NCBI GenBank assembly: GCA_038734275.1
Contig: JAVYOO010000002.1
Coordinates: 158,911 to 222,910 of the forward strand
Origin: Archaeoglobaceae archaeon
GTDB taxonomy: Archaea; Halobacteriota; Archaeoglobi; Archaeoglobales; Archaeoglobaceae
Direction of reading: 5' to 3'
DNA length: 64,000 nucleotides
Under the pieces are notes generated by a model. That model did not search any database. It worked only from the letters and a program-made list of their open reading frames with translations, and was not told the DNA's origin. Below are positions 56,617 to 59,232 of the stretch, one piece after another. The position numbers and the translations under genes were made by a program. Positions within the stretch are counted from its first letter, which is position 1. Each line of letters opens with the position of its first letter.

Positions 56617-57224
56617 CTTCTCAACCTCCAATATGTTTTCCCAGAATCCTGAAATCTTTCGATTACTCTTCTTTTTTCCAGAATCTGAATTATTTCAGTT
56701 AATTTCATTGGTTGAGAAATTTCGAGATTTATTGGATCCAATTTGAACTCGGAAAACAAAGCATTTTTTATTCCCCAAAAATCTTGCTCTCCCTTTTCGA
56801 GAATCCTCAAGACGAGTGCAGATAGTTCCTCCACCAAGTTCCATGGGAAAATTATCCATACATTCTCCGGAACGTATTCTCCAAGATAGTCTGGGATGAA
56901 TTCTGAGCTTTGAAACATTAAAAGAGCTCCGGTTTTTATTTCATCTGCCTTTACTCTCTGAAGAGTTCTTTTCATTGTCTTTCCTGTGTTTACAAAGTCA
57001 TCTACGATTAGAGCCCTTTTCACAGAAACCTCCTCTTTTAGTTTTAAATCAATACTAACTACGTCTACACCAAGGTAGTCGCTTAAGATCATTGAAGCGA
57101 ACCAGCCACCTTTTGCGGGTGCAATGATCTTTTCTGGTCTAAAGGTGTCTTCAAGAACCTGTATTGCTAATTTCCTGCACAAAAGTTCAGCGTATTCCCA
57201 GTTCAACACGACGTAGCGATCCAT
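56613..57224 (-). CDS. purine phosphoribosyltransferase-like protein with C-terminal winged helix
   Basis: This 203-residue protein has the PRPP-binding loop ALIVDDFVNTGKTMKRTL (about residues 90-107) and IIAPAKGGWFASMILSDYLG near residue 33. From about residue 165 a winged-helix-like tail (KLTEIIQILEKRRVIERFQD) follows, uncommon in catalytic PRTases, so it may act as a regulator or a salvage enzyme. It is followed by the MTAP-family gene and preceded by the polymerase subunit gene, which ends next to its start. Confidence 0.83.
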   Translation of the reverse strand: MDRYVVLNWEYAELLCRKLAIQVLEDTFRPEKIIAPAKGGWFASMILSDYLGVDVVSIDLKLKEEVSVKRALIVDDFVNTGKTMKRTLQRVKADEIKTGALLMFQSSEFIPDYLGEYVPENVWIIFPWNLVEELSALVLRILEKGEQDFWGIKNALFSEFKLDPINLEISQPMKLTEIIQILEKRRVIERFQDSGKTYWRLRR

Positions 57225-58679
57225 TCAACCACCATTGAAGTTAAGCCTGCCTATTCTGTCTCCGAGATAAACAGCAACGTTGCATGGCATCGGGTTAAGA
57301 TTTACCTTCTTTTGAAATTCAGTTTGCGATTGCCAAGTGGATGAGTTTACAAGAAAAACACCTCTATAAAAACCAATTCCGAACGTATGGACATGACCAC
57401 TATGGATTACATCCGGTATTTCCTCGATAACAAGATTGTCTTCCCTTTCTGGTGCTATTGGACTCCTACCACCGTATAGCGGACATAAATGACGTCTTTT
57501 TAAAAGTTCTTCCATTCCCTTATGTGGAGCATCGTAGCTTAGTCTGGGAATCTTCGTTACAATGTCATCAAGACTTCGACCATGATACACAAGAACCCTG
57601 ACACCATTCAGATCAAGAAGAGCAGGATTACCAACGCTCATTACATTTTTGGGAAAGAGAGTTTCAAATTCGTTGGGCAGTGGTGGTTGTGGTTCTGCTT
57701 GACGGACCGCATCGTGATTGCCCGGGGAGATTATGAGCTCCACGTCTTTTCTAATTTCATCAAGATTTTCCGCAGCATATTCGTATTGTTGGTAAATGTC
57801 TATTATTGCCAATTCCTTTTCTTGTTCTGGATAAACGCCCACCCCATCCACTATGTCCCCAGCCAGAATGACGTATTTTATCTTTTCTGCAATTTCATTC
57901 AATTTTTCATCCTGACATTCACAGTTAAGCCATTCGACAAATTTTTTCCATTTCTCTTGAAGAAAACCCTTACTACCGAAATGTGTATCCGATATGAACA
58001 CTATCCCAAAATTTATTGTCTTTTTATCTCCATTCACAGGAACATCTGGAAAGATTATTCTGTCTGCCACAAGCGAACTCCCTTTTAGTGTTCCCGTGAC
58101 TCCTATTACCTCATCACCGAGCAATTCTCTTGCAATTTCCGCATTTTTTCCATTTGCAATACAGTTAATCGTCCCAGTCTGATCTTCCAGTTCAATTAAA
58201 AAATGATCTTTTCGTTCGATTACATTTGAAACTATACCTACAATACTAACAATCTCCCCTTTAACTCTACCGAGATTTCTGATCTGTGTAGGCTGAATTC
58301 TGTTTTTCAAAATTTTGGAAATCTTTTCAAGTCTGGAGTTAAAGTAGGCCACAAAATCTTCAACTTTTCCCTCAACAATTGAAGTTCTAAAATCTCTGAG
58401 GATTCTAATTCCTTGATCAGTCTTGAATTCAGCCTGCTTTTTAGTTTCTGGGCTTTTTATTGTTTTGGGCTGAGTAAGAATTGCTCTAACATCCTCCTCA
58501 CTTATTATAAACTTATTTTTTGCGATTTTACAAACCTCCTCTATAATGGCTTCTGGATCTTCAGAGGAGCAGATAAGTTGGGCCGCCTCAGGACTTATGT
58601 TGTGCCCCCGAACAAGAAGTTTTTTGGCAACAGTAACTGGATCGATATTTTTAACTACCCTCTGCCCCCCTTCATTCAT
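57225..58679 (-). CDS. polB: DNA polymerase D small subunit (DP1) with exonuclease
   Basis: From ATG 58679 this is 484 residues, normal for short DP1 proteins. The centre has an OB fold (ISKILKNRIQP... GRVKGEIVSIVGIVSN), and the C-terminal half is a calcineurin-like phosphoesterase, the 3'-5' exonuclease, with FISDTHFGSKGF, LAGDIVDGVGVYPEQ, SPGNHDAVR and HSGHVHTFGIG holding the metal ligands. The reading back to 58907 lies within the signal peptidase gene and is not credible. Its start codon overlaps that of the signal peptidase by two bases. Confidence 0.92.
   Translation of the reverse strand: MNEGGQRVVKNIDPVTVAKKLLVRGHNISPEAAQLICSSEDPEAIIEEVCKIAKNKFIISEEDVRAILTQPKTIKSPETKKQAEFKTDQGIRILRDFRTSIVEGKVEDFVAYFNSRLEKISKILKNRIQPTQIRNLGRVKGEIVSIVGIVSNVIERKDHFLIELEDQTGTINCIANGKNAEIARELLGDEVIGVTGTLKGSSLVADRIIFPDVPVNGDKKTINFGIVFISDTHFGSKGFLQEKWKKFVEWLNCECQDEKLNEIAEKIKYVILAGDIVDGVGVYPEQEKELAIIDIYQQYEYAAENLDEIRKDVELIISPGNHDAVRQAEPQPPLPNEFETLFPKNVMSVGNPALLDLNGVRVLVYHGRSLDDIVTKIPRLSYDAPHKGMEELLKRRHLCPLYGGRSPIAPEREDNLVIEEIPDVIHSGHVHTFGIGFYRGVFLVNSSTWQSQTEFQKKVNLNPMPCNVAVYLGDRIGRLNFNGG
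58644..58655 (+). promoter_or_regulatory. TATA-like box of signal peptidase, inside the DP1 gene
   Basis: GATATTTTTAAC is centred about 29 bases before ATG 58678 and lies within the coding sequence of the divergent DP1 gene. The mirrored DP1 box, CTTTAAGAAC on the minus strand at 58701-58710, lies inside the signal peptidase gene. Confidence 0.4.
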
Positions 58680-59232
58680 GGAAAGAGCTAAGGTTATTGA
58701 GTTCTTAAAGGATTTGGTCTCAACAATTGCAATAGTAGCCATAATAATATTTCTTGGAATTGCTATTACCGGATGTTGGCCCTTTATGGTTGCGGTCGAA
58801 TCGGGAAGCATGGAACCAAATCTCATGCCCGGAGATGTAGTTATACTCATGCACCCCTCCAGAGTTGGGCTTAAAACATGGGAAGATGGAAAGAAATCCG
58901 GATACATGAGCTTTGGAGACTATGGGGATGTGATAGTCTACTACCCAAACGGACACGGAAAAGCCATAATTCATAGAGCGATTGCATACGTCAACGCTTC
59001 AGAGAATATCCCAGTTCTAAGTGGAGGTAAGCTCTCCAGAACGGAAGAAGTTGCCGAGATTTCCGGATACATCACCCAGGGGGATGCAAACAGAATTCCC
59101 GATCAGCTGGCAGTGGTTAGATCGCAAAGCGGATTAGATAGAATTCTACCGGTGCAAGAAGAATGGATTGTAGGTGTTGCAAAGCTTAGGATTCCACTTA
59201 TAGGTTATCTTAGACTACTTATCCCCATATAA
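58678..59232 (+). CDS. signal peptidase I, archaeal type
   Basis: This 184-residue protein has one N-terminal membrane helix (LVSTIAIVAIIIFLGIAI), the catalytic Ser in VAVESGSMEPNLMPGDVV (about residues 39-56), a His in AIIHRAIAY where bacteria use Lys, and an Asp in ITQGDANRIPD. This Ser-His-Asp set is typical of the archaeal and ER forms. It removes signal peptides at the membrane's outer face. The start ATG overlaps the divergent DP1 start; the reading from 58546 is not supported. It converges on and overlaps sepS by 18 bases. Confidence 0.9.
   Translation: MERAKVIEFLKDLVSTIAIVAIIIFLGIAITGCWPFMVAVESGSMEPNLMPGDVVILMHPSRVGLKTWEDGKKSGYMSFGDYGDVIVYYPNGHGKAIIHRAIAYVNASENIPVLSGGKLSRTEEVAEISGYITQGDANRIPDQLAVVRSQSGLDRILPVQEEWIVGVAKLRIPLIGYLRLLIPI

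Follow-up and report, generated by a model that had tools for sequence, protein, structure and literature searches.

Two divergent genes meet head to head near the right end of the 64,000-nucleotide stretch of archaeal DNA analysed here (the window). The gene on the minus strand encodes DP1, the small subunit of PolD, and the one on the plus strand a putative signal peptidase (SPase). The features of the junction are as follows.

57225–58679, minus strand: DP1 (PolD small subunit) gene, with its ATG at 58679–58677 and its stop codon at 57225–57227.
58644–58657, plus strand: candidate SPase BRE/TATA element GATATTTTTAACTA, within DP1 codons 8–12, its TTTAA starting at −28 of the SPase ATG.
58665–58670, minus strand: GGGGGG in DP1 codons 4–5, with the same codons in the loci L001–L005.
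58677–58680, both strands: CATG holding both start codons, in all eight members of one clade.
58678–59232, plus strand: S26 SPase gene, with its ATG at 58678–58680.
58704–58717, minus strand: proposed DP1 BRE/TATA element CCAAATCCTTTAAG, within SPase codons 9–14.

The DP1 protein scored 581.6 bits against NF003118 (cut-off 445) and 67.6 bits against PF04042 (cut-off 29.1). The product of the plus-strand gene passed PF10502 (S26) with 23.1 bits against a cut-off of 22.9 and narrowly missed the archaeal signal peptidase I family TIGR02228 (50.0 bits, cut-off 51.85); by these profiles, it is annotated as an S26 signal peptidase. In the genome of the window (1.73 Mb in 12 contigs), the profile search gave one match for DP1, and the archaeal signal peptidase profile matched SPase only, in two pieces and below the cut-off. 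Both genes thus look single-copy. A sequence-only reading of this DNA had claimed that the two start codons overlap, and this is borne out: CAT at 58677–58679 and ATG at 58678–58680 are read directly in the sequence, and both genes belong to known families. The two coding sequences share 2 bp (58678–58679), so that two genuine genes on opposite strands overlap at their 5′ ends. On each strand, the presumed transcription start within CATG offers a pyrimidine–purine step (CA). An earlier SPase start was ruled out, as in L003, L004, and L005 its frame is open no further than −75. A DP1 start deeper in SPase (ATG at +28 or +31, found in seven of the eight clade species) was also rejected; it is missing in the genome of the window and falls in the proposed TATA box. 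At its other end, SPase overlaps the convergent SepRS gene (sepS) by 18 bp (59215–59232), and hence overlaps a neighbour at both ends. The latter overlap measures 14–36 bp in all eight clade species and 4 bp in L009, L010, L011, and L072, while in L017 the two genes lie 19 bp apart.

Chance is an unlikely source of the overlap, judged by how uncommon such pairs are in the genome of the window. The 55 divergent pairs predicted in 362 kb (21% of the genome) had gaps of at least 45 bp save two (−36 and +4 bp). We doubted that these two are true overlaps, since the HdrA2 and HisRS profiles align only from residues 40 and 26 of the called proteins, respectively, so that their starts were probably called too far upstream. 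The simple gene caller overlooked the DP1–SPase overlap itself, extending DP1 to 58811 and dropping SPase; further overlaps may therefore have been overlooked, and the number found is a minimum. Conservation of the arrangement in eight species is the stronger evidence.

This conservation was examined in relatives, of which the best 80 of 205 were surveyed; L001–L050 represent 49 of 60 genomes, with 11 genomes standing outside the comparison. Rows were excluded where no ATG was found (L107 and L111) or where the genes were more than 400 bp apart (L049, L126, L139, and L140), and SPase starts were picked by hand in one sequence set and by rule in another. The resulting 45 non-redundant Archaeoglobaceae junctions fell into three classes. 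In 8, all from the genus of the window, CATG is the DP1 start. In 28 (close), the DP1 ATG lies 17–21 bp from the SPase ATG, behind a Shine–Dalgarno (SD)-like stretch. In the remaining 9 (distant), DP1 is at least 67 bp away, one of them having no assigned DP1 start (L097, excluded from the DP1 freeze tests and from the tree). On a DP1 tree of 44 rows, from which the first 20 residues had been removed, the eight CATG species formed one clade with a support of 100/100. The L009 group was its nearest neighbour (90/76), and L011 and L034, which belong to the same genus, branched outside both. The L009 group, L011, L034, and L017 all retain an internal DP1 ATG with an SD-like core. An in-frame CATG ATG was also present in seven of the 28 close junctions (L009, L010, L017, L018, L020, L032, and L072); in L009, L010, L072, and L017, which are near the clade on the tree, it stands alongside the internal ATG. 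The base before the SPase ATG was C in 36 of the 45 junctions, compared with 28% of 175 upstream regions of the genome of the window. The minus-strand ATG is therefore nearly free, and a matching frame is its sole requirement. One distant junction, L026, is peculiar: its DP1 starts with MITKDVD 67 bp to the left of the SPase ATG, and a copy of the promoter that would read as MVIKDID-like remains before SPase, as if a duplication had separated the two functions.

The CATG ATG was the only ATG of DP1 before codon 16 in all eight species of the clade. A later DP1 start, which would undo the overlap, had no candidate in seven of them, where DP1 codons 2–20 contain no in-frame ATG, GTG, or TTG; in L007, it keeps two, TTG (codon 5) and ATG (codon 16).

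The promoters were then considered. A promoter motif trained on 175 upstream regions of the genome of the window was gAAAAaTTTATAaA, and its start position was most often −35 from the ATG, which is the geometry of leaderless genes. It picked out both TATA-like boxes at the places given in the sequence-only reading. The SPase box at −34 to −21 scored 6.32 bits, a score attained by 3.1% of 3000 control ATGs internal to coding sequences and by 53% of the 175 ordinary upstream regions; by score, it is an average promoter. Taking as leaderless a gene that has a TATA element about 24–30 bp before its ATG and no SD, SPase belongs to this type, as no SD core precedes it in the 8 or the 28. The element, GAYA..TTTAA, occurred at −28 in all of the 8 and at −28 to −32 in 27 of the 28. 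The DP1 codons beneath it were synonymously frozen: among the sequences having the residue, K10 was AAA in 36/36, I12 was ATC in 30/30, and I9 was ATT in 25/25. These three ranked 1, 2, and 4, respectively, of 286 DP1 columns in the 36 junctions of the 8 and the 28, and DP1 Ser codons 236, 369, and 381 also stood high in this test (3rd, 5th, and 6th). The element was present in five of the 9 junctions beyond the reach of DP1, which argues that the peptide is not what maintains it. A VK or IK near the DP1 N-terminus was found in 36/36 DP1 proteins of the 8 and the 28 and in 1/8 distant ones; this N-terminal peptide would then be the promoter read as protein.

The proposed DP1 box, at −38 to −25, is weak by score. 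Its 3.36 bits were attained by 12.6% of the 3000 controls and by 70% of the 175 upstream regions, and its score was 3.2–3.4 bits across the 8. It nevertheless lies under a synonymous freeze. SPase codons 8–14 (58699–58719) were the most synonymously frozen SPase stretch in the 8, with z up to approximately 8.5 when measured against windows beyond codon 30, and this window stayed on top in all eight leave-one-out runs. Codon 8 was GAG in five of the 8, and codons 9–14 read TTC ATA AAG GAT TTG GTC, save that TTA replaces ATA in the window and GTG replaces GTC in L005. In the 28 close junctions, the frozen SPase block was located further in, at codons 17–22 (z 7.9), whereas the 9 distant junctions gave z of at most 0.4; comparing the 8 and the 28 with the 9 is also a comparison of different lineages. 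When random sets of 9 were drawn from the 28, the top window did not move beyond codon 24 in 94 of 100 draws, and the small number of distant cases thus does not account for their missing freeze. These tests take the sequences as exchangeable, and the remainder of the gene served as the reference for each junction window because relatedness raises all columns. With codon freeze under both boxes, and an SPase free of it in the distant junctions, the earlier claim that each promoter lies in the coding sequence of the other gene gains strong comparative support, which is stronger evidence than the motif score. The two boxes are also separate and, as claimed, intertwined: their TATA centres are crossed by 56 bp, with the presumed starts between them.

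SD motifs distinguished the classes as well. No SD core was found before the DP1 or the SPase start in any of the eight clade species. An SD-like core (at least four bases of GGAGGTGAT) preceded the internal DP1 ATG in 23 of the 28 close junctions, and the other five had G-runs of 5–6. The absence of an SD core before either start makes leaderless or nearly leaderless transcripts likely in the 8. The claim of leaderless promoters gains from this and from the placement of the SPase element; the DP1 box, for its part, is weak by score but synonymously frozen. The GGGGGG of DP1 is probably a relic of the SD of the relatives. It has been lost in L006–L008 and is kept in five species, where no start codon follows close behind. 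Of 33 conserved glycine columns of DP1, only four had identical codons in L001–L005; two of these form GGGGGG and two lie at the 3′ end of the gene. A relic alone may not account for this retention, and SD-led initiation could still occur there. The terminal codons GGT GGT (57222–57233), identical in L001–L005, lie where the ATG of the next gene abuts the DP1 stop codon, and may serve as its SD.

From the computed arrangement, clade, synonymous freeze, and absence of SD cores, we infer transcription starts, leaderless translation, an order of events, and steric exclusion, and propose the following model. The junction quite probably consists of two crossed, mutually embedded core promoters of divergent housekeeping genes, in which DP1, having lost an SD-led internal ATG, came to start further upstream, at its own transcription start. 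TBP and TFB would bind one box or the other. SPase transcription would begin at or near 58678, at or beside its own ATG, and be leaderless; DP1 transcription would begin within a few bases of 58679, in the same CATG, and both mRNAs are probably translated leaderless in the 8. In the close-gene relatives, motif positions suggest that the DP1 mRNA carries a short SD leader of about 15–50 nt, and the DP1 promoter would tend to lie deeper in SPase, at codons 17–22. In the clade of the window, the internal ATG may have disappeared through a deletion or a single-codon change; the TATA box is 3 bp nearer to the SPase ATG in the clade than in L009. The in-frame minus-strand ATG of C-ATG would then have taken over as the start, and the former leader would have become DP1 codons 2–7. 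With the boxes crossing by 56 bp, there would hardly be room for two initiation complexes at once.

A fuller reading can be offered tentatively, with the odds somewhat against it: the approximately 80 bp of 58641–58720 would comprise two N-termini and two crossed core promoters, each initiation would pick DP1 or SPase, and the additional N-terminal stretch of DP1 (roughly V-[VI]-K-x-I-D) would be the translated promoter of the neighbour and no functional part of the polymerase.

Other explanations were weighed against this model. DP1 might have a leadered transcript, from a promoter about 75 bp into SPase, and be translated from CATG without an SD or, after GGGGGG, from an unusual start codon, for instance GUA at codon 8. 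The best minus-strand motif in the window, GAAATATTATTATG, does lie at about +75 of SPase, and its 6.8 bits exceed the score of the DP1 box; SPase I23 in this region is ATA in 5/5 (rank 5 of 147), the GGGGGG codons are the same in L001–L005, and GTA follows six bases behind. In the 8, however, only L001, L003 (4.3 bits), and L002 (2.1 bits) had a site near +75 among their three best, six-codon SPase windows from codons 14–24 reached z of at most 2.1, codon 8 reads GTT in L006 and ACT in L007, and L006–L008 have lost the G-run. GUA is not known to be an efficient start codon, and we regard a leadered DP1 as improbable. Still less credible is a freeze arising from something other than promoters, such as translation of a signal anchor or mRNA structure at gene starts, with the overlap as a harmless accident. 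Codon use at the 5′ ends of genes is often special, and SPase codons 17–24 are within a presumed membrane segment; but the same SPase region is not frozen in the 9 distant relatives, even though random sets of that size keep the signal, and BRE/TATA-like motifs with appropriate spacing are among the frozen nucleotides.

A true regulatory switch might operate in addition to the crossed promoters, if an initiation complex on one box shuts out the other and the expression of DP1 is thereby linked to that of SPase. In its favour, the boxes cross by 56 bp and flank both presumed starts. Competition of opposed polymerases at E. coli bidirectional promoters, as described in PMC12825309, provides a parallel. 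Relatives with separated genes, however, live without such exclusion, and we consider a switch rather unlikely. Mutual exclusion of the complexes would follow from box geometry, and regulation through it is suggested by that geometry only.

An SPase match was found in 47 of 50 loci around DP1 in relatives (49 genomes). With named records added, SPase was near to and divergent from DP1 in 113 of 130 loci among the matches listed, which are redundant between collections. The 17 loci without an adjacent divergent SPase among those matches included four distinct ones of Archaeoglobaceae (L029, L031 = L096, L033, and L078). Of ten records with Methanosarcina in their titles, nine had no nearby SPase among the matches listed, and in the tenth, L126, it was more than 1 kb off. 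The pairing also occurs in further members of the phylum, among them Methanolobus, Methanohalophilus, and Methanoperedens, where the gaps are mostly about 50–300 bp; judged by these sequences, it is old. The proposal that the junction links replication to secretion is not supported, as the neighbourhood is old and, at most gaps outside Archaeoglobaceae (about 50–300 bp), the boxes presumably need not cross. In several euryarchaeal groups, DP1 is located near cdc6 and origins, according to PMC2643942, and an excerpt of PMC2841640 gives orc1 as HVO_0001 and polD1 as HVO_0003 in H. volcanii. The present DP1 likewise lies in a conserved neighbourhood, but its conserved neighbour is SPase, and the best cdc6/orc1 match is about 45 kb away.

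Known divergent arrangements were compared with the junction. In the P. furiosus bidirectional promoter, as outlined in an excerpt of PMC6640164, starts 49–50 bp apart surround one TATA box. Both systems have divergent starts set by TATA boxes, but DP1–SPase has two separate boxes crossed by 56 bp with the starts between them, and not one TATA midway between starts about 50 bp apart. The P. furiosus geometry is matched by other genes of the genome of the window: in four of the five tightest credible divergent pairs (gaps 45–54 bp), the best TATA centres of both strands were within 4 bp of each other, suggesting one shared box in effect and a minimum spacing for leaderless divergent genes. The four pairs, with gaps of 45–51 bp, are located on contig C2 (e.g. 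C2:346997/347043). Overlaps of coding sequences at their starts on opposite strands are known and rare: a survey of 58 prokaryotic species, as excerpted from PMC2174442, counted 331 divergent overlaps against 1890 convergent and 12737 codirectional ones, and 274 of the 331 were at least 5 nt long. The DP1–SPase overlap differs from these in being conserved across eight species, with promoters that can be located by codon freeze. Among the literature matches listed, no title or abstract opening concerned the DP1–SPase junction or start-site mapping in Archaeoglobales.

The junction is an unusually compact yet understandable genome design in heat-loving archaea, and no known switch. Should a complex on one box indeed preclude a complex on the other, a secretion gene would, purely by the layout of the DNA, influence how much of a replicative polymerase subunit is made. 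The natural series of junctions suggests a path from SD-led to leaderless initiation, with an SD leader at the outset, then a free in-frame ATG in CATG, and then the loss of the internal ATG. Core promoters of archaea can, moreover, be sought through codon freeze within opposing genes.
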